Source: a virus
Reading direction: 5' to 3' (one strand)
IMG/VR virus record: IMGVR_UViG_3300031951_001245
Location: 1-23,202 of that record
Length of the DNA stretch: 23,202 nucleotides
Position numbers and translations under genes: made by a program. The notes under the pieces were generated by a model. That model made no database searches and was not told the origin of the DNA. It was given only the letters and a program-made list of their open reading frames with translations. Below are positions 2,490 through 22,661 of this stretch, piece after piece. Every line of letters begins with the position of its first letter. Position 1 is the first letter of the stretch.

Positions 2490-2710
2490 TGCGAATTACT
2501 CGGAAACAAGCTTATCAAGCTCATCCGGTACCTTCACACGCATACTACCCTCCAGAGGACCCGCTAGAGCCTGATATTACACAACAGCCTGAAGTTGTGG
2601 TAGAATATGAAGATTCTGGAGAAGAAGAAAAAGCATTTAGATGCAGAAACTGCGGCGATGTAGTGTTTGAATCAGAGCTGGAGATACATGATTGCGGAAG
2701 TGAAGACTAA
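2489..2710 (+). CDS. Acidic protein with C-terminal zinc-ribbon-like motif
   Basis: A 73-residue protein, acidic in the middle (YEDSGEEEKAF) and ending CRNCGDVVFESELEIHDC. The CxxC at about 52-55 plus HxC at about 67-69 would give four metal ligands, as in C2HC zinc fingers. It overlaps the neighbouring genes by one base on each side, so translation is likely coupled. It follows another Cys-motif protein, which suggests a functional pair, but no function is known. Possible roles include nucleic-acid or protein contacts. Confidence 0.75.
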   Translation: MRITRKQAYQAHPVPSHAYYPPEDPLEPDITQQPEVVVEYEDSGEEEKAFRCRNCGDVVFESELEIHDCGSED

Positions 2711-3204
2711 TGCCTGATTACGGACCTGATGACCCCTGGAAAGATAAAACTCCTAAATATTCTTATACCCCAAAAACTGATAAGAAAAGCTCTGCGTATC
2801 AGCAGACTAAGAAGTGGCTTGATATCCTACTAGAAGGTAGCGATGATGCTCCTGATAAAGATTTTGAAGTAGACACCCCAAGTAATACAGTTTTATCTGT
2901 AACTACTTCTACAAATCCAAAAAAACCTAGGACTTTAAAAGCCGGATATGACTTTAAAACCCAAACACTTACGGTAGTTTTTAGAGACGGCACCTGGTGG
3001 GAGTATCGAGAAGTGCCAGATTATATGTGGTATGATTTTCAAGCAGCAACCTCTAAAGGAGAATTCCTTAGAGAATCTGGTTTAGACCAGTGGCCTGACA
3101 TGGGGCCAGCTGATGTAAGCTCTATGCCTAGAAATAGACGTGTTCAAATGAACGACGTAAAGCAGTTTGCAAAACAACTATACGAAGGAAATAAGAAAGA
3201 CTAA
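2710..3204 (+). CDS. KTSC-domain protein
   Basis: A 164-residue protein. Residues 1-55 are polar and Lys/Asp-rich. Residues about 63-120 match the KTSC domain pattern: a YDFKTQTLTVVFRDG strand pair, then TWWEYREVP, then the helix DYMWYDFQAATSKGEFLRES with the usual A.SKG.F signature. KTSC domains occur alone or attached to lysyl-tRNA synthetase or phage proteins; their biochemical role is poorly defined. The C-terminus is basic. It overlaps the previous gene by one base. The domain call is confident, the function is not. Confidence 0.75.
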   Translation: MPDYGPDDPWKDKTPKYSYTPKTDKKSSAYQQTKKWLDILLEGSDDAPDKDFEVDTPSNTVLSVTTSTNPKKPRTLKAGYDFKTQTLTVVFRDGTWWEYREVPDYMWYDFQAATSKGEFLRESGLDQWPDMGPADVSSMPRNRRVQMNDVKQFAKQLYEGNKKD

Positions 3205-5931: not shown

Positions 5932-6243
5932 ATGGCACTTATTAAGGGTAAAGAAGTACAGGAATCCCCCACACAATATCCTGCTAACCCTAAGCTGTGG
6001 AACACTATTACCACGCAAGCAAAAACTAAATTTGCCAAATACCCTTCTCCAGCAGCCGCCCACTGGGTTCATTCAAGGTATGTTCAACTAGGCGGAAAGT
6101 TTGTAGATAGCAAGAAGGAAATAGACCCTAGATTTAGGGACTATGCTCAGGAAAAAATGGACAAGCTAGAAAAAGACCGAAAGAATAAGGTCACTAAGCC
6201 GGTTGGAAAAGGCAGTATTGCTGGAGAGAGATTTAGAAAATAA
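5932..6243 (+). CDS. Conserved small phage protein (YPSPAAAHW...GGKF type)
   Basis: A 103-residue basic protein. The core about 25-60 reads WNTITTQAKTKFAKYPSPAA and HWVHSRYVQLGGKF. This KFxxYPSxxAxxWxxxxYxxxGGxF pattern is one I recognise from small hypothetical proteins widespread in phages, with no established function. The C-terminal half is Lys/Arg/Asp-rich (KLEKDRKNKVTKPVGKG). The gene precedes the portal. Nucleic-acid binding is possible because of the charge but not shown. The start at 5932 is preceded by a GGCGG at 5922-5926. Confidence 0.65.
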   Translation: MALIKGKEVQESPTQYPANPKLWNTITTQAKTKFAKYPSPAAAHWVHSRYVQLGGKFVDSKKEIDPRFRDYAQEKMDKLEKDRKNKVTKPVGKGSIAGERFRK

Positions 6244-16330: not shown

Positions 16331-16864
16331 ATGCGCGCTTATACTCCAGGTGGAAGATTTGATGCTGACTTTGAGTCAGACCACATTAGCGAAGGCGCTA
16401 CCTCAGACATCACTAATCCTGTAGGTACTACGGCTGAGTGGTGGAGGCTAGATGCCGTCAACTCAACAAGAGACGCTATCTATGACGTAGAGCCTGTAGG
16501 AACTGGACGTATTTGGCTTGGACCTAAAACTCTTTCCGTGCTTAGAGTTTCTCTTTCTCAGGGAGCATCTATGCTTAATGAGCGCGGTTTCTATAACGCA
16601 GATACCATGCACTTAACCTTAAACGTAGACGACGTTCAGGCAGTAGCCCCTGAAATCTTTAATAACGTAGGTTCCGTAGTGTCCGCTGTAGACCAGTTAA
16701 ACAAGTACCGTGTTGTCTTCCGGGGACAGGTGTATAGGCCAATTAAGACTCAGCCTGCGGGGCTAGTCGCTAATCGCTATACTTTAATTATTATGGACTT
16801 GACTCAGCTTGCTCCAGATGAACTGGTCAATGACGCTCAATTCTTAACCTACGCTCAACCCTAG
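16331..16864 (+). CDS. Neck / head-closure candidate virion protein
   Basis: A 177-residue protein. It begins MRAYTPGGRFDADFESDHIS and contains IWLGPKTLSVLRVSLSQGAS, RGFYNADTMHLTLNVDDVQA and YRVVFRGQVYRPIKTQP, a beta-rich pattern of small phage virion proteins. Located after the fibre genes and before the tail module, it may close the head or link head and tail; this is inference from position. No catalytic motif is seen. The start has no clear ribosome site but a TACAAT just upstream suggests leaderless expression. Confident as a gene, less so for role. Confidence 0.7.
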   Translation: MRAYTPGGRFDADFESDHISEGATSDITNPVGTTAEWWRLDAVNSTRDAIYDVEPVGTGRIWLGPKTLSVLRVSLSQGASMLNERGFYNADTMHLTLNVDDVQAVAPEIFNNVGSVVSAVDQLNKYRVVFRGQVYRPIKTQPAGLVANRYTLIIMDLTQLAPDELVNDAQFLTYAQP

Positions 16865-16873
16865 GAGATATAA

Positions 16874-17155
16874 ATGCCAGACCCAAATAAGACACCAAAC
16901 AAAGGCTACGGAAAAGGCCCTATTCTTGGACCTAATAACAAGCCTATTTCACAAGCAGATGCTGATAAATTCAAGAAGGTGGACAACGCGCAGACTGCCA
17001 GTCTAAAGAAAGAAAACAAGACTCGTTCTGCTAAAGCCAAGGCTGTAAAGGAAGCAGTTGCTCTTGCTAAAAAGCCTGCTGCAAAGAAGCCTACACCTGC
17101 CAAGAAGGCTGCGCCTAAAGCAGCCGCTCCTAAAAAGGGTAAAACAGGTTACTAA
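16874..17155 (+). CDS. Lys/Ala-rich H1-like small protein
   Basis: A 93-residue protein. Residues 1-45 are polar (MPDPNKTPNKGYGKGPILGP). Residues about 48-93 are an H1-like basic tail (KAKAVKEAVALAKKPAAKKP then PAKKAAPKAAAPKK). An AGGAGATATAA precedes the ATG. The stop overlaps the next start by one base. It opens the island of small basic genes and resembles the tail of the H1-like gene at 1007. DNA or RNA binding is inferred from composition only. Confidence 0.75.
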   Translation: MPDPNKTPNKGYGKGPILGPNNKPISQADADKFKKVDNAQTASLKKENKTRSAKAKAVKEAVALAKKPAAKKPTPAKKAAPKAAAPKKGKTGY

Positions 17156-17337
17156 TGGACAAAAGAATGTCCGGTAAATCTAAGGTATCTAAGGTCATGC
17201 ACGAGTACGGTGCAGGCAAGCTAAAGTCCGGTAAACCTGGCCCTGGTAAAGGTCCCGTAGTTAAGTCCTCAAAACAGGCTATCGCTATTGCACTTTCTGA
17301 AGCCGGTATGGCTAAAAAGAAAAAGGGTAAGAAGTAA
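17155..17337 (+). CDS. DUF6496-like small basic protein
   Basis: A 60-residue protein. KVMHEYGAGKLKSG followed by SSKQAIAIALSEAG matches the DUF6496 pattern (VMxEfxxGxLxSg...KQAIAIALSEA), a small family found in phages and bacteria with no known function. The C-terminus is a Lys run (KKKKGKK). It is linked to its neighbours by one-base stop/start overlaps at both ends. The family match is from memory of the motif. The role in the virion or infected cell is unknown. Confidence 0.75.
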   Translation: MDKRMSGKSKVSKVMHEYGAGKLKSGKPGPGKGPVVKSSKQAIAIALSEAGMAKKKKGKK

Positions 17338-17714
17338 TGGGAATTATTAGAGGTGTTGCCCGTGCAGCTAGAGTTGCAAGTAAAGTCAACAAGGTAAGAA
17401 AGCAAGTAAAAGAAGCCGGCGGTGGACAAGAAGCTGTAGCACAAGAAATTGGTAAAGGTGCCCGTAAGATAGTTAGAAGCGGTTTACCGTTTGCTACTGG
17501 AATTATTGTAGATAAAATAGCTGGCCAAAAAATAGAAGACTTTGCTACCAAAAAAGCAAACCAAGGTATGGGCCAGGTTAGAGGCGCTGTACAGGGCAGG
17601 CTTAACGAATTTACAGGTGGAAAAGACTCTGCATCTAGCAGCGACCCTTGGGCTGATTGGGATTCCCCATCTACTCCTCCCGCTCAGCCTAAAAAAGACG
17701 AGTGGGACTTTTAA
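17337..17714 (+). CDS. Small protein with helical basic half and acidic tryptophan tail
   Basis: A 125-residue protein. The first half is basic and helical (GVARAARVASKVNKVRKQVK) with a moderately hydrophobic segment at about 48-60 (SGLPFATGIIVDKI). The last 30 residues are acidic and Trp/Pro-rich (DPWADWDSPSTPP, ending EWDF). A basic body with an acidic C-terminal peptide suggests a docking tail. It is the only gene of the island with this pattern. The family is not recognised. One-base overlap with the gene before and zero-base spacing to the next. Confidence 0.7.
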   Translation: MGIIRGVARAARVASKVNKVRKQVKEAGGGQEAVAQEIGKGARKIVRSGLPFATGIIVDKIAGQKIEDFATKKANQGMGQVRGAVQGRLNEFTGGKDSASSSDPWADWDSPSTPPAQPKKDEWDF

Positions 17715-17921
17715 ATGCCAAACAGCAAAAAGCCTGCTTCTAAATCAAAGAAGTCTGGAGTTAATGCTGCCGGAAACTATACCAAGCCCGGTATGCGTAA
17801 AGCGCTTTTTAATAAAATAAAGGCTGGCACTAAGGGTGGAGACCCTGGCGAATGGTCAGCTCGTAAAGCTCAACTTCTTGCTGCTGAATATAAGAAAAAA
17901 GGCGGAGGCTACAAGAGTTAA
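17715..17921 (+). CDS. Small conserved basic viral protein (AGNYTKPGMRK type)
   Basis: A 68-residue protein. The core is NAAGNYTKPGMRKALFNKIK followed by GTKGGDPGEWSARKAQLLAA and KKKGGGYK. I recognise this AGNYTKPxxRKxLFxxIKAGxKGG...WSARKAQxLAxxYKxxGGGY pattern as a family recurring in many phages of aquatic bacteria, without known function. It begins immediately after the stop of the previous gene. The sequence conservation argues that it is not merely low-complexity. Nucleic-acid binding is possible because of charge. Confidence 0.75.
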   Translation: MPNSKKPASKSKKSGVNAAGNYTKPGMRKALFNKIKAGTKGGDPGEWSARKAQLLAAEYKKKGGGYKS

Positions 17922-18157
17922 TGGCCAAGGCTAAATCTCAGCAATCACTAGATAAGTGGACTAAGCAAAAGTGGAGAACCTCCGACGGTAAGCCGTCTAA
18001 GGGAAAGAAGCGATATCTTCCAGATGCTGCTTGGAATGCTTTAAGTCCTGCTGAGAAGAAAGCGACCAATAGAGCCAAGGCTAAAGGTAATAAAAAGGGT
18101 GACCAATTTGTTCCTCAGCCTAAAAAGATAGCTAAGAAAGCAGCGAGATACAGATAA
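17921..18157 (+). CDS. Small conserved basic protein (WTKQKWRT...RYLP type)
   Basis: A 78-residue protein. SLDKWTKQKWRTSDGKPSKG then KRYLPDAAWNALSPAEKKAT and KGNKKGDQFVPQPKKIAKKA form a recognisable family pattern seen in phages and in large eukaryotic viruses; the biochemical role is undefined. It is highly basic. One-base overlaps join it to both neighbours. Recognition is from motif memory and should be tested with profile searches. Confidence 0.75.
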   Translation: MAKAKSQQSLDKWTKQKWRTSDGKPSKGKKRYLPDAAWNALSPAEKKATNRAKAKGNKKGDQFVPQPKKIAKKAARYR

Positions 18158-18375
18158 TGGCTAAAGTAAAAACTCAAGACGGTGTGCGCCACACAGTTAC
18201 TAAAAATAAAAAGGGCGAGATAATCGTTGACCACACTGATAAAAAGGGCGGCAAGTACGATAAAATGAATCTTACTAAAGTTGCTGGCTCTAAGACCGTT
18301 AAACAAGGCGTAAAGGCAACTCGTAAGTGGCACAAAGAGAATCCGCAAAAGAAGGTAAAGAAAAATGGCAAGTGA
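18157..18375 (+). CDS. Small Lys-rich protein
   Basis: A 72-residue protein. The first 30 residues (VKTQDGVRHTVTKNKKGEII) look like a short beta hairpin, followed by a basic helix (KTVKQGVKATRKWHKENPQK). It overlaps the next gene by 11 bases. The family is not recognised. Its composition and coupling fit the rest of the island. Confidence 0.7.
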   Translation: MAKVKTQDGVRHTVTKNKKGEIIVDHTDKKGGKYDKMNLTKVAGSKTVKQGVKATRKWHKENPQKKVKKNGK

Positions 18376-18694
18376 AGCATGGCAAAAGAAAGCCGGTAAA
18401 AACCCAAAGGGTGGCTTGAACGAAAAGGGCCGTAAGTCCTACGAAAGAGCCAACCCAGGCTCTAATTTAAAATCACCGGTAAAGTCAGGCGACAATCCTC
18501 GTAGAGCCTCTTTCTTGGCACGTATGGCTGGTAACCCAGGTCCAGAACGTAAGCCTAACGGTGAACCTACAAGACTTCTATTAAGCCTACAGGCTTGGGG
18601 TGCTTCATCAAAAGCAGATGCTCGCAAGAAAGCTGCTGCTATGTCTAAGCGCCTAGAAGGTAAGAAAAATGCCGGAAAAAAGAAGTCTAAATAA
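18365..18694 (+). CDS. DUF6321-like basic protein
   Basis: A 109-residue protein. AWQKKAGKNPKGGLNEKGRK, then RRASFLARMAGNPGP and GEPTRLLLSLQAWG match the DUF6321 pattern (KNPxGGLNxKGR...RxSFxARMxGxPGPxxxxxGxPTRxxLxLxxW), found widely in phages with no established role. A basic tail follows (KKAAAMSKRLEGKKNAGKKK). It overlaps the previous gene by 11 bases and the next by 26. The family match is recalled, not searched. Confidence 0.78.
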   Translation: MASEAWQKKAGKNPKGGLNEKGRKSYERANPGSNLKSPVKSGDNPRRASFLARMAGNPGPERKPNGEPTRLLLSLQAWGASSKADARKKAAAMSKRLEGKKNAGKKKSK

Positions 18695-18845
18695 GGCTGC
18701 TCAAGCTAGACGTAACGCAGAATCTAAAGCTTTGCATGAAGTTAGCAGACAATTTAAAACTGGGCCTAATGCAAACCCCAGCACTAAAAGAGCTAGAACT
18801 CGCTCAGCGGCTAATAAAAAAGCTATAACTGACTTTGATAATTAA
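18669..18845 (+). CDS. 58-residue basic protein
   Basis: An ATG at 18669 opens a 58-codon frame ending TAA 18843-18845. The product begins MPEKRSLNKAAQARRNAESK and ends RSAANKKAITDFDN. It overlaps the previous gene by 26 bases in another frame. It fills the gap before the AAGGAG that serves the next microORF. Arg/Lys/Ala-rich and probably helical, family unknown. Identified by reading the frame directly. Confidence 0.6.
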   Translation: MPEKRSLNKAAQARRNAESKALHEVSRQFKTGPNANPSTKRARTRSAANKKAITDFDN

Positions 18846-18853
18846 GGAGAAGT

Positions 18854-18910
18854 ATGTCAGACTGTAAATGCGAAAACTGTAAGTGTGGAAAGGAACAACC
18901 AAATGGCTAA
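18854..18910 (+). CDS. 18-residue Cys-rich microprotein (CxCxxCxC)
   Basis: ATG 18854 has a strong AAGGAG at 18844-18849 and encodes MSDCKCENCKCGKEQPNG, ending TAA 18908-18910. Four cysteines in CKCENCKC resemble a metallothionein-type metal cluster. It overlaps the next gene (ATG 18903) by eight bases, so it might also act as a translational leader. Coding is plausible because of the strong ribosome site and Cys spacing, but its 18-codon length keeps confidence low to moderate. Confidence 0.5.
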   Translation: MSDCKCENCKCGKEQPNG

Positions 18911-19298
18911 ACAGCATAAGTGCGGAAAATGCGCTGGATGTAAAAAGGGCCTTAAGTGCACCATGGATTGGATGGACGAGCGCGAAAACGGCAAGAAGAG
19001 CAAGAACACCCCTGAATACATGAAGGGCAAGTACACAGAGACTAAGGATAAGCCTAAAGACAAGGCTATGCTTAAGAAGCGTGGTTTGACATCTAAGGCT
19101 GATGAAGCCGCTTTTGAGAAGGCAGATAAAGCCCATGCTGCTAAAAAGAAGCCTACCACTATGAAGCAGGACGCTAAGATTGATGCTAAAATCATGAACA
19201 AGCTTGCTAAAAAGAAGGAAGCCGCTCATGAGAAGCGTGAGGGTAAAAAAGGCGAGAAAGCCGAAAACAAACGTGAAAAGAAGAATGGAAAAAAGTAA
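18903..19298 (+). CDS. Cys-motif, strongly Lys-rich protein
   Basis: 131 residues from ATG 18903, supported by AAGGAAC eight bases upstream; a GTG at 18885 would add six residues but lacks a ribosome site. The N-terminus HKCGKCAGCKKGLKC has four cysteines (7, 10, 13, 19), a likely metal-binding knuckle. The rest is a highly charged Lys/Ala/Glu chain (KADKAHAAKKKPTTMKQDAK, EGKKGEKAENKREKKNGKK). It follows the CxCxxCxC microprotein and is probably coupled to it. Function unknown. Confidence 0.75.
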   Translation: MAKQHKCGKCAGCKKGLKCTMDWMDERENGKKSKNTPEYMKGKYTETKDKPKDKAMLKKRGLTSKADEAAFEKADKAHAAKKKPTTMKQDAKIDAKIMNKLAKKKEAAHEKREGKKGEKAENKREKKNGKK

Positions 19299-19300
19299 TT

Positions 19301-19618
19301 ATGGCTGGCTATAAAAAATTAAGTCCTTCAGAGCAGAAGATACGTAATAAAGGTAGAAAAGACAACATTAAAAATGTAGCTGATAATGAGCTACGGTCTC
19401 AGGGTATTGCGGTTAAAAAAGGTGTGCCTCAAAGCAAAGATGGCGCAGGTTATGCTAAAAATTCCGTGGTAGCTTCAAAATTTGTGCCAAAGACTGATGG
19501 AAGTAAGTCATCTGGTAAAGTAACAAATCATTTAAAAAGAGTTAATCAGTCCGTAGTTGCCCGTGGAGGCAAGCCAGGGTCTACAGTTCCGGCAAATGTA
19601 AAAAAGAAAGCTAGGTAA
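19301..19618 (+). CDS. Small basic protein, paralogue of the next gene
   Basis: A 105-residue protein. N-terminal LSPSEQKIRNKGRKDNI is basic and helical. The C-terminal RVNQSVVARGGKPGS is repeated almost exactly in the following protein (RVNQSVVAKGGKPGS), although codons differ, so the motif is under protein-level selection. Two bases separate its stop from the next start. Family unknown. Confidence 0.72.
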   Translation: MAGYKKLSPSEQKIRNKGRKDNIKNVADNELRSQGIAVKKGVPQSKDGAGYAKNSVVASKFVPKTDGSKSSGKVTNHLKRVNQSVVARGGKPGSTVPANVKKKAR

Positions 19619-19620
19619 TT

Positions 19621-19896
19621 ATGCCTACAAATAAAGGCAAGGTAAATAAGGTACGTTCAAAAGACGACAAAGCTACCGTTAAAGCAATGTCCACTGAAAG
19701 AGTTTCAGGAGAGGTTGCTGCAACAGGGCCATACCGTAAGGCAATTAAGGCAGGTAGTGCTGTAAGTAAGACTGTAAAAAGTTCGGTTTTAGGGACTAAA
19801 AGCAGTTGGCCAAGTAAGAAAATAAATAAACGTGTGAATCAGTCGGTGGTTGCAAAAGGCGGTAAACCCGGTAGCCTTTATAAGAAAAGTGAGTAA
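19621..19896 (+). CDS. Small basic protein, paralogue of the previous gene
   Basis: A 91-residue protein that ends the basic island, followed by a strong terminator. It shares KRVNQSVVAxGGKPGS near the C-terminus with the upstream gene. The rest (KVNKVRSKDDKATVKAMSTE, GPYRKAIKAGSAVSKTVKSS) is basic and Ser/Lys-rich. It is probably related to 19301 by duplication or domain sharing. Function unknown. Confidence 0.72.
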   Translation: MPTNKGKVNKVRSKDDKATVKAMSTERVSGEVAATGPYRKAIKAGSAVSKTVKSSVLGTKSSWPSKKINKRVNQSVVAKGGKPGSLYKKSE

Positions 19897-19910
19897 TTAA
19901 ACAAGTTTAG

Positions 19911-19935
19911 CCCCCCGAAAGGGGGGTTTTCTTTT
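19911..19935 (+). terminator. Strong rho-independent terminator
   Basis: CCCCCC (19911-19916), GAAA tetraloop, GGGGGG (19921-19926), then TTTTCTTTT. It ends the basic-protein island and separates it from the tail module. Confidence 0.93.
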
Positions 19936-20008: not shown

Positions 20009-20173
20009 ATGGCTGATTTTGACAAGGATAAATACCGTCAGGTGTCTAGTCCTAGTGAAAGCGATTTTTTGCAGGGTGTAACAGACAGCGCTAAGCAAAA
20101 AGAGCTTGAAAAATTAATGCCTTATATAGCGGTAATCGTAGCAAATAGGTACAAAGCACGGCGGTGGAAATGA
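20009..20173 (+). CDS. 54-residue protein at start of tail module
   Basis: From ATG 20009, served by GGAG at 19999-20002, giving MADFDKDKYRQVSSPSESDF... and ending ANRYKARRWK. An upstream TTG at 19973 in the same frame would add 12 residues but has no ribosome site. An amphipathic helix (DSAKQKELEKLMPYIAVIVA) occupies the middle. Its stop TGA overlaps the next ATG (ATGA). Probably a small tail or neck assembly component by position; family unknown. Confidence 0.65.
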   Translation: MADFDKDKYRQVSSPSESDFLQGVTDSAKQKELEKLMPYIAVIVANRYKARRWK

Positions 20174-20496
20174 AAAAAGAATTAGATGATTCTTTAAATA
20201 TTTCTCTAAAGTCTATGGAGCCTGACCTTACTGTAAGTTTACGTAAAGAGGCTATAGACAAAGGTTGGCCAGAAGAGTTGGCTTCGTACCTAAATGTACG
20301 TATTAAAGACAAAGCTATCCTCGTTTCTTATGAGGACGCTGTAGCAGACCAAATAGAAGACCTAGAATACGGCTCAAAAATTGAAGGGCCAAAACCAGTA
20401 TTGCGCTTCTTTGCGTCTAAAAATCAAGAGGTAATCGCTAATAAAATCAGCGAATGGTCTGTAAATTATTTATTTGAAAAAGGTATTTTGCCATGA
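20170..20496 (+). CDS. Tail-completion-type protein 1
   Basis: 108 residues from ATG 20170 (a GTG at 20164 would add two). It starts MKKELDDSLNISLKSMEPDL and contains WPEELASYLNVRIKDKAILV, then a C-terminal WSVNYLFEKG. Small proteins in this position, between neck and sheath genes, commonly complete or link the tail to the head. It overlaps both neighbours through ATGA. No specific family is recognised, so the role is from context. Confidence 0.68.
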   Translation: MKKELDDSLNISLKSMEPDLTVSLRKEAIDKGWPEELASYLNVRIKDKAILVSYEDAVADQIEDLEYGSKIEGPKPVLRFFASKNQEVIANKISEWSVNYLFEKGILP

Positions 20497-21107
20497 GTTT
20501 TATCCTTAGCGAAGACCAGGCTCTTAAGAATATCTTGTCAGGTATTACAGTAGCTGATGAAAAGAACCCTACTCGTACAGTGGGGGTGTGGTTTGCTAGC
20601 CCGGATATTGAGTCACGTTCTCAAAGCTACCCTTATATGACCATCGAGCTTTTGGATTTTGTAAAAGCCGGATATCGCCAGCACTCAGGATTATTTGAAG
20701 ACCCAGACAGACAGGGTACCGTTGCTCCCGTTAATAACGTTCTGTATACCTACGAAATTCCTGTGCCGTGGGATTTGGTGTATCAAATAACTAGCTATGC
20801 TAGACACCCAAGGCACGACAGAAAGATAATTGACCATATGCTGAATAAAGTTGTGGTAGGGCAACGAGGTTATCTTCCAGTGCCAAATGATTTAGGTACT
20901 GAAACATCCTACCGTCATTTGATTTTAGAAGAATTTACCAAACGCGACACGATAGAAGATAACCGCAGGTTATATAGAAATGTGTTTACCGTAACGGTAA
21001 GTAGTGAGGGAACCGCAGCAACTGTTGTAACATCCCTTGCAGCCCAATCAGTTGAAATTAACGCTAATCCAAATAACTCAATTCCACCCGGTCTACAACC
21101 TATCTAA
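20493..21107 (+). CDS. Tail terminator / neck-type protein
   Basis: A 204-residue protein beginning MSFILSEDQALKNILSGITV. It has RSQSYPYMTIELLDFVKAGY, YTYEIPVPWDLVYQITSYAR and NRRLYRNVFTVTVSSEG, a beta-rich fold in the size range of tail-terminator and neck proteins of contractile-tailed phages that lie directly upstream of the sheath. ATG overlaps the previous stop. The role is inferred from position and style; no catalytic motif is seen. Confidence 0.72.
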   Translation: MSFILSEDQALKNILSGITVADEKNPTRTVGVWFASPDIESRSQSYPYMTIELLDFVKAGYRQHSGLFEDPDRQGTVAPVNNVLYTYEIPVPWDLVYQITSYARHPRHDRKIIDHMLNKVVVGQRGYLPVPNDLGTETSYRHLILEEFTKRDTIEDNRRLYRNVFTVTVSSEGTAATVVTSLAAQSVEINANPNNSIPPGLQPI

Positions 21108-21149: not shown

Positions 21150-22661
21150 ATGGCGTATTTACGTCCCGGAGTTTACGTTGAAGAAGTCGCAACGCTTGCT
21201 CCAGTAACTGGTTCTGTATCAGACACAGTTGCTGCATTTATTGGTGCCGTTGACCGCGGGCCAGTAGTTCCAACCCTTGTAACTTCTTGGGCTAATTACA
21301 CAAGCCTTTATGGTTCTTGGGCAACTTACAACAAGGTCACTAACGCTGTTTATATGTTTTTTGCAAATGGCGGTAGCCAGTGCTATGTACACAGGGTATT
21401 GGGCACCGGAAGCCCAGCAACGGCTACTCGTACGTTTAACGATACTAATACCACCCCAGCTAACACTCTAACTATTAATGCAAAAAATCCTGGAAGTTGG
21501 GGTAACAAGATTTCTATCGAAATCCTTGCTTCGGCTAGAGGAGCTAACTACTTTAACTTAGTTGTTTACTACAATGGAAACACTTCCAGCAATGTGGTAG
21601 AAAGATTCAGCGACCTTACCATGAACGTGAACGATGGGGTAAGTTATGCAATTACAGTAATTAACGCAAACTCAAGTTACATCGTTGCTGTGGATGCAGT
21701 TGCTAACGACTCTTTTGAAGCTGCGGATAACCCAGCTGTTGTTGCGCCATCAGCAGCTACTGAGCTTGCTGGAGGAACAGATGGAACTGCACCTACTGAC
21801 ACAGTTATTGCCGCTGCAGTTACAAACTTCGACAGCATCACTAACTCATTGGTGTTAAACGCCCCTGGAGTTACTGCATCTGCAAACGTAAACTCTTTGA
21901 TTACCTATGCAGAAGGACGCGGAGACGTGTTCTTAGTTGTAGACGGCGATAGCGGCTCGACAACTGCTACAGCTGAGGTTAGTACTGCAAGCGCGTACAC
22001 TGCAAGCGCAAATGCTGCCGTATACTACCCTAACTTGGTTATCCCAGACCCTACTTCAAACGTGGCTGGAGCTACCGTCACTGTTCCTTCTGGAGCAGCT
22101 GTTGTTGCTAAATACGTTACCACTGACGCATCTAGGGGAGTATTTAAGTCCCCTGCGGGCCTAGAAACTAGACTAGCCAACGTGGTTTCTGTTGCAAAAT
22201 TGTCAAACGCAGACCTAGACAACATGAACAGCGCTACAAAGCCTGTAAATGCTATTCGTTATATTCCAGGTTCTGGAATTGTAGTAATGGGAGCTAGAAC
22301 TCTAAAAGCTACTTACAATGACCGCTATGTAGCGATAAGAAGAACGCTTATATTCCTTCGTAAGCAGCTAAGCGAGCTATCTGCATTTGCTATCTTTGAG
22401 CCAAACAACGAAGCGCTATGGGCCAGAGTAACTAATACAATTGAGTCAGCACTAGTGACCTTCTGGCAACAGGGTGGTTTGCGTGGGGTTACTCCTCAAG
22501 ACGCGTTCTACGTAAAATGTGATTCCACCACTAACACAAACAACTCTATTCAAAATGGAGAGGTAAATGTAGAAGTTGGAGTTGCTCTTCAGCGTCCCGC
22601 TGAATTTATAGTTATCCGTATTAGCCAGTACGACAGCGGGGCTGTTGTAACAATTTCCTAG
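21150..22661 (+). CDS. Contractile tail sheath protein
   Basis: A 503-residue sheath subunit, the outer cylinder that contracts during injection. The start MAYLRPGVYVEEVATLAPV fits the sheath N-terminus (YxxPGVYxEE). SVSDTVAAFIGAVDRGPV at about 22-39 is characteristic. Residues about 388-500 form the conserved C-terminal sheath domain (YNDRYVAIRRTLIFLRKQLS, NEALWARVTNTIESALVTFW, INxGEVNVEVGVALQRPAEF-type). The middle, about 90-330, is a variable insertion rich in Ala/Thr/Val. AAGGAG lies seven to eight bases before the ATG. The tail tube follows immediately. Confidence 0.93.
   Translation: MAYLRPGVYVEEVATLAPVTGSVSDTVAAFIGAVDRGPVVPTLVTSWANYTSLYGSWATYNKVTNAVYMFFANGGSQCYVHRVLGTGSPATATRTFNDTNTTPANTLTINAKNPGSWGNKISIEILASARGANYFNLVVYYNGNTSSNVVERFSDLTMNVNDGVSYAITVINANSSYIVAVDAVANDSFEAADNPAVVAPSAATELAGGTDGTAPTDTVIAAAVTNFDSITNSLVLNAPGVTASANVNSLITYAEGRGDVFLVVDGDSGSTTATAEVSTASAYTASANAAVYYPNLVIPDPTSNVAGATVTVPSGAAVVAKYVTTDASRGVFKSPAGLETRLANVVSVAKLSNADLDNMNSATKPVNAIRYIPGSGIVVMGARTLKATYNDRYVAIRRTLIFLRKQLSELSAFAIFEPNNEALWARVTNTIESALVTFWQQGGLRGVTPQDAFYVKCDSTTNTNNSIQNGEVNVEVGVALQRPAEFIVIRISQYDSGAVVTIS

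Follow-up and report, generated by a model that had tools for sequence, protein, structure and literature searches.

Twelve small, mostly basic genes between the head and tail genes of a BRock-related myovirus: a candidate cassette of late, virion-associated proteins

Twelve small genes on one strand occupy positions 16874-19896 of the stretch analysed here, a single virus record of 23,202 bases (IMG/VR virus record IMGVR_UViG_3300031951_001245; hereafter the window), and the frame map bore out the twelve same-strand frames listed there by an initial annotation made from the letters alone. Two features that the annotation had not foreseen define the set: it is an exchangeable cassette that is absent from Streptomyces phage BRock and half of whose window genes are orphans, and two of its members, g04 and g05, are a split DUF5872-like protein that bacteria encode too. 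Our preferred, still tentative, reading is that this is a late, translationally coupled accessory cassette of nucleic-acid-binding, virion-associated basic proteins. Coordinates of the genes and their flanks are collected in Table 1.

The eleven junctions are tight (four TAATG, one zero gap, overlaps of 11, 26 and 8 nucleotides, and gaps of 8, 2 and 2 nucleotides) and support the earlier proposal of one co-translated set; a Shine-Dalgarno-like AAGGAG precedes g09. Because g01 starts 10 nucleotides behind p177, the gene on its left, the cassette appears to form the 3' portion of a longer operon; no promoter excess was seen. The strong terminator announced for its end was recovered as a hairpin with a predicted RNA fold of -17.3 kcal/mol (z -2.4). 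Compared with the 23 other genes of the window, the twelve have a higher Lys content and a higher net charge (Mann-Whitney p ~1e-5 each), and ten of the proteins are strongly basic (net +0.16 to +0.24 per residue), the exceptions being g03 (10% Lys, net +0.06 per residue) and g09. The description of nearly all of them as extremely Lys/Ala-rich holds for most, and suits g03, g08 (12% Lys, Arg/Ala-rich) and the Cys-rich g09 less well. Lys is concentrated in the C-terminal 8 residues (34% vs 20% in the body), and the idea that Lys-rich C-termini provide the ribosome-binding site of the next coupled gene was rejected, as they are equal before coupled and uncoupled genes (p 0.34).

Scans of IMG/VR with the tail sheath and with g05 gave 160 loci, both flanks being present in 45 loci; 32 non-redundant islands, the window included, were compared. 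In these loci tiny open reading frames (ORFs), mostly 8-15 per locus, follow one another in the p177-p204 interval, the cassette site being bounded by p177 on one side and p110/p204/tail sheath on the other, and the 32 islands together contain 373 ORFs (a count that takes in a few flanking genes at the island edges) with a median of 64 residues, 21% Lys and a net charge of +0.19 per residue. The ORF tiling favours dense ORFs, but the recurrence of families is independent of the tiling. About 22 families recur across the islands in a partly fixed order, F10-F4-F9-F1-F3-(F12/F16/F6-F7)-F15/F13-F5-F0-terminator-F2-F8, from which the window departs in that g04-g05 precede g06-g07; besides the four window families whose island counts are given in Table 1, F6 (g04) and F7 (g05) are each found in 17 loci. 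A terminator-like hairpin lies inside the interval in 42 of the 45 loci, mostly directly 3' of F0. Since homologous cassettes stand at the same site in 32 non-redundant islands, the window cassette is not a chance arrangement. In BRock the flanking genes are kept, the cassette is absent and two fibre-like genes occupy the site; the relative L084 likewise lacks the cassette, which is therefore accessory. The two BRock genes, gp140 and gp141, were considered as fused basic proteins and ruled out, being fibre-like with 3-6% Lys+Arg.

The initial annotation had made its case depend on conservation in related phages and on coding-type substitution. Conservation was found for six families (g02, g04-g07 and g10), whose substitution patterns are of coding type, with median ratios of non-synonymous to synonymous substitution rates (dN/dS) of 0.07-0.27; these six are under purifying selection. 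The domain names first given were also upheld: g02 matches DUF6496 (Pfam 43.3 bits, E 4.7e-11, cut-off 24 bits), g07 matches DUF6321 along profile positions 1-72 of 72 (87 bits, E 1.4e-24, cut-off 28.5 bits), and the AGNYTKPGMRK family is genuine and widespread, g04 belonging to phrog_17747. For the other six genes no conservation was found: g01, g03, g08, g11 and g12 gave no relative outside this genome (g03 and g11 were searched directly), and g09 is too short for such a search. Because no relatives were found, the coding status of these six rests on position, coupling and composition. That of g11 and g12 is additionally supported by the C-terminal segment that they share, RVNQSVVA[RK]GGKPGS, since its 16 codons show mostly synonymous differences (11 synonymous vs 2 non-synonymous). 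The Cys-rich g09 resembles the MCxxCGC mini-ORFs of sibling islands (families F13, F15 and F21); a further sibling family, F16, carries a CW..NCVP motif.

Several other features of the sibling cassettes were noted. The first ORF of many is tiny and extremely acidic (F10, net -0.43 per residue; e.g. L018:6540, L061:6714 and L104:8812). The family is present in 12 of 32 islands, besides which there are similar ORFs that fall outside it; F10 is absent from the window and might serve the basic proteins as a partner of opposite charge. Small HNH-endonuclease-like ORFs, recognized by eye from their motifs, occur at L146:11812, L063:3541, L157:2814 and, as family F11, at L157:2103 and L161:3908; F11 and F17 are the HNH-type families, and such ORFs may be linked to cassette turnover. 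Family F5 (L053:3161-3304) contains an EF-hand/dockerin-like loop, DVNKNGKLDKDDF, with weak Pfam matches.

The adjacent genes g04 and g05 (the AGNY and WTKQ families, respectively) behave as a unit well beyond the window phage's own clade, which accounts for 10 of the 80 loci found by g05 alone. In 79 of these 80 loci g04 is present, the remaining one being a 657-base stub; the pairs are always on the same strand, within 30 nucleotides of each other in 61 of the 80. Elsewhere, single ORFs of 128-134 residues join the two families, and hhalign placed g05 (99.9%) and g04 (99.6%) on separate halves of the fused phage proteins. As each aligns to one half, g04 and g05 are the two halves of one DUF5872-like protein. 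The phage fusions score 21.4-25.9 bits against DUF5872 (PF19197), below the 27.5-bit cut-off, and a Roseomonas fusion scores 27.8 bits, above it; g04, g05 and the concatenated pair gave no DUF5872 match in Pfam. The window thus differs from DUF5872 proteins, of which an algal giant virus member has been reported (PMC12085832) and which we found in bacteria, in having two adjacent genes in place of one. In pelagiphage Hodr a 132-residue ORF fuses the pair near a terminase-like gene (assigned by eye). In Synechococcus phage S-EIV1 (L179:5992-6270) the annotated coding sequence begins within the AGNY domain; the open frame reaches further upstream and joins AGNY to the first part of WTKQ, the remainder of which forms a separate ORF two genes on.

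Relatives of g05 are also encoded at 237 places in GTDB genomes. The fused protein lies on chromosomal contigs of Roseomonas, Methylobacterium, Sphingomonas, Aureimonas and Croceibacterium, and the bacterial fusions carry a C-terminal Rho_N-like tail (a pattern in 9 loci, with weak Pfam matches at E 0.015-0.02). SAR11 genomes have the swapped domain order, WTKQ-AGNY, and at several loci the gene stands among amine oxidase, DUF1365, CMAS, DUF3833, SDR and TspO genes; L318, L304, L310, L311, L312, L326 and L343 are in or beside the DUF1365/CMAS/DUF3833/SDR cluster. The cellular version thus appears to adjoin genes of photo-oxidative-stress type, in a cluster resembling one for furan fatty acids, and its role may be nucleic-acid protection. 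ChrR is part of the singlet-oxygen response. It was in a Rhodobacter ChrR background that the making of furan fatty acids by DUF1365/UfaO and its partners was studied (PMC7380195).

The company that these genes keep in unrelated phages is that of late genes, not of early takeover functions. Among 44 WTKQ loci scanned outside the clade, the nearest large downstream gene most commonly matched families of the terminase large subunit (phrog_2 in 7, phrog_38 in 5, phrog_979 in 4, and others), followed by head closure, portal and virion proteins, and virion structural, fibre and head proteins lie upstream; the AGNY/WTKQ pair adjoins genes for the terminase, portal, head and tail. AGNY, WTKQ, DUF6321 and F18 families also occur as tiny genes on a single strand in the small-gene clusters of pelagiphage HTVC033P, Methylophilales phage MEP401, Roseobacter phage CRP-9 and HMO-2011, frequently a short way before the terminase gene or within a late region; these are other phage types, the positions differ and the families have no assigned function.

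The most direct tie to virions comes through g07. DUF6321 is the C-terminal domain of the cyanophage protein T4-GC119 (members S-SM1 SSM1_115, Syn9 gp114 and P-HM1 PHM1_110), a string of small modules encoded between the small and large terminase subunit genes (TerS and TerL). The g07 family profile matched T4-GC119 C-termini at E 1e-29 to 2e-33 and S-CREM2 gp137, which occupies the same slot and ends in DUF6321 (3.5e-10), at E 2.6e-9, and sibling-island family F16, a module present in Syn9 and S-E7, matched Syn9 gp114 at E 1e-10. In CsCl-purified S-CREM2 virions gp137 was detected by mass spectrometry (4 unique peptides, 4.1% coverage), as was its Lys-rich neighbour gp136 (8 peptides, 24.1%) (PMC10665884 Table 3). 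For S-SM1 the link is indirect. In the P-HM1 record, 19 of 241 features bear a note that reads ‘similar to Synechococcus phage S-SM1 protein’, comprising baseplate, neck, tail, portal, capsid and protease proteins, GC15, GC190, GC400 and GC119, and zero replication genes. All nine proteins named as newly found in S-SM1 virions (gp4, 5, 14, 21, 25, 48, 53, GC190 and GC15; PMC3037559) bear this note, and because it also marks GC119, the latter is probably among the 41 S-SM1 virion proteins. GC119 and gp137 share with the cassette the g07 domain and late structural or packaging neighbours; they differ in being a single multidomain chain (233-708 residues) in T4-like cyanophages, with the modules fused between TerS and TerL, whereas the window modules are separate, tiny, coupled genes between p177 and p110. 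None of the g02, g04, g05, g06 and g10 families was detected in GC119, and blastp of the cassette proteins against it gave, beyond g07, only weak matches of low-complexity type. Two further connections failed: a relation between window p103 (5932-6243) and the CYHKVKSRYSVWPSAYASG module of GC119 was unsupported, and the LRDWF-GWVQ module of GC119 was not matched by the F7 profile and so was dropped as a WTKQ homologue.

Our current working hypothesis is that the cassette, inserted between the head/neck and tail genes of a BRock-related myovirus, would be expressed late, within an operon that groups it with assembly genes. Coupled stop-start junctions favour matched synthesis, and the products, most of them probably nucleic-acid-binding, would probably be produced abundantly and in matched quantities while particles assemble, and would probably be virion passengers, most likely housed in the head together with the DNA. 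Packed there, they would neutralize and organize the DNA and may accompany it into the next host. Counted at one copy each, the window proteins sum to a net charge of +176; by arithmetic at an assumed ~300 copies each, the set would neutralize roughly one in four phosphates of a 112 kb, BRock-sized genome. The way of working would be like that of the T4 internal proteins IPI, IPII and IPIII, which number ~300 copies each in a head, bind DNA under low-salt conditions and are in many cases ejected (PMC9026906), and which are likewise small, basic, several per phage and poorly conserved between relatives. No sequence relation to them was found, and T4 internal proteins have a processed capsid-targeting propeptide whereas the N-termini of the twelve proteins show no common motif on inspection. 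In cyanophages, some of the same modules are threaded on one polypeptide, T4-GC119, and not made from separate coupled genes.

A number of points weigh against this hypothesis. Both the virion location and the binding of the standalone cassette proteins are deductions. The virion role first proposed gains independent support from DUF6321-bearing proteins in cyanophage virion proteomes and from late or packaging neighbourhoods in unrelated phages; for the window's own proteins a place in the virion, DNA compaction and injection are proposals. BRock does without the cassette, and cellular DUF5872-like proteins act without a virion. Detection of gp137 was weak (4.1% coverage), and the authors of the S-CREM2 study caution that proteins abundant in infection may co-purify (PMC10665884); the presence of GC119 in S-SM1 virions is read from annotation notes, the protein is called hypothetical in the text of PMC3037559, and the Syn9 record puts no structural label on it. 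The Rho_N match falls short of the Pfam cut-off (E 0.015-0.02). Neither the AlphaFold model of the fused DUF5872-like protein (pLDDT, the model confidence score, 74) nor that of g07 (pLDDT 80) matched a fold in the PDB, so no DNA-binding fold was found by that comparison, and sequence searches of the PDB with g05, g07 or the fused protein returned only uL2 at E 0.42. Inspection, as distinct from a formal motif search, revealed no capsid-targeting N-terminus shared among the twelve.

The proteins could instead be late intracellular nucleic-acid chaperones that bind phage DNA or RNA in the cell (for protection, concatemer handling or translation) and are non-structural, any presence in particles being carry-over. 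The DUF5872-like fusions on chromosomes of Sphingomonas, Methylobacterium, Aureimonas, Roseomonas and SAR11 speak for this, as the SAR11 copies by the furan-fatty-acid-like photo-oxidative stress cluster must act in the cell; the position of the families among the structural and packaging genes of unrelated phages and the DUF6321 proteins in virion proteomes speak against it, and we consider it rather unlikely, if a serious contender. An accessory-gene hotspot, that is, a permissive intergenic site gathering unrelated tiny genes whose basicity simply reflects phage small-gene composition, would account for the high turnover, the six window orphans, the absence of the cassette from BRock and L084 and the HNH-endonuclease-like F11 and F17. 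It sits poorly with ~22 recurring families that are consistently basic, partly fixed in order and under purifying selection, with AGNY and WTKQ co-occurring in 79 of 80 loci, adjacent in 61 and fused in many genomes, and with the fusion of DUF6321 and F16 modules in GC119, and we regard it as unlikely.

Head-tail junction or tail assembly factors, acting as completion or stabilizing peptides of the contractile tail machine, would suit a cassette between neck-type and tail genes and, in cyanomyoviruses, a GC119 whose gene lies between those for TerS and TerL and close to that for the sheath. The same families nevertheless occur in podovirus-like phages where no sheath gene was seen (MEP401, pelagiphages) and are missing from sheath-bearing BRock, which makes such a role very improbable. 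Hardly any weight is left for a non-coding artefact of A/G-rich sequence: runs of AAA/AAG alone would give a high Lys content, but the dN/dS of 0.07-0.27 for the six window families that have relatives, the Pfam and PHROG matches and the conserved terminator position refute it for g02, g04-g07 and g10.

The window phage itself is related to BRock, the terminase being 52-53% identical to those of BRock and its allies. Because portal, major capsid, fibre, tail sheath and tube genes stand in BRock order, the phage is contractile-tailed; it may be of freshwater origin and may have an actinobacterial host. Two genes outside the cassette were also noted: a 197-residue Lys-rich ORF near the left end (1007-1600; 19% Lys, PAAKPAAKQPGKK repeats, only weak PHROG matches), and a KTSC-domain protein (2710-3204; Pfam 1.5e-12) with a counterpart of 49% identity upstream of the BRock terminase.

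Table 1. Genes of the cassette, its terminator and the flanking genes (positions in the window; F numbers are families recurring across the islands)
Feature	Position	Strand	Description
g01	16874..17155	+	93 aa, Lys/Ala-rich, no detected relative
g02	17155..17337	+	60 aa, DUF6496 (PF20106), family F4, 19/32 islands, dN/dS 0.12
g03	17337..17714	+	125 aa, weakly basic, acidic C-terminus, no detected relative
g04	17715..17921	+	68 aa, AGNYTKP..WSARKAQ family, phrog_17747, F6, N-terminal half of DUF5872-like protein, dN/dS 0.07
g05	17921..18157	+	78 aa, WTKQKW..RYLP family, phrog_14910, F7, C-terminal half of DUF5872-like protein, dN/dS 0.09
g06	18157..18375	+	72 aa, family F1, 26/32 islands, dN/dS 0.19
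g07	18365..18694	+	109 aa, DUF6321 (PF19846), F3, 21/32 islands, dN/dS 0.23
g08	18669..18845	+	58 aa, Arg/Lys/Ala-rich, 26-nt overlap with g07, no detected relative
g09	18854..18910	+	18 aa, Cys-rich frame (MSDCKCENCKCGKEQPNG), zero net charge
g10	18903..19298	+	131 aa, 30% Lys, Cys-rich N-terminus, F0, 28/32 islands, dN/dS 0.27
g11	19301..19618	+	105 aa, paralogue of g12
g12	19621..19896	+	91 aa, paralogue of g11
Intrinsic terminator	19909-19934	+	AGCCCCCC GAAA GGGGGGTT TTCTTTT, GC hairpin and U-tract, closes cassette
p177	16331..16864	+	Left flank, conserved cassette boundary, BRock gp142 relative (tblastn map, BRock annotation)
p54	20009..20173	+	54 aa, opens next unit; position matches family F2 in relatives
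p110 and p204	20164..21107	+	Right flank, ahead of tail sheath
Tail sheath	21150-22661		Right of p110/p204

More speculatively, and with a probability that we put low, unrelated aquatic phages might share an exchangeable kit of more than 20 tiny basic modules, partly common to bacterial stress-associated proteins, that forms a DNA-organizing virion nucleoid packed with the genome and is encoded either as coupled mini-genes or as a beads-on-a-string polypeptide. The families concerned are very common in freshwater and marine viromes (IMG/VR yields at least 587 g05 relatives, and DUF6321 occurs in 490 phage records) and are catalogued without function as Pfam DUFs and PHROGs, and no paper naming DUF6321 or DUF6496 was found among those searched. 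Such proteins may be missed in proteomics because Lys-rich proteins leave few usable tryptic peptides; g06 yields one suited to mass spectrometry, g09 none, and g10 a coverage of 18%. What is new here is the recognition of the cassette as a conserved, exchangeable locus, of the equivalence between its coupled genes and the fused chain of GC119, and of the link that the split DUF5872 makes to bacteria. These families travel as a set with late genes, a protein detected in virions contains some of them in fused form, and two of them are the halves of a family that bacteria also use.

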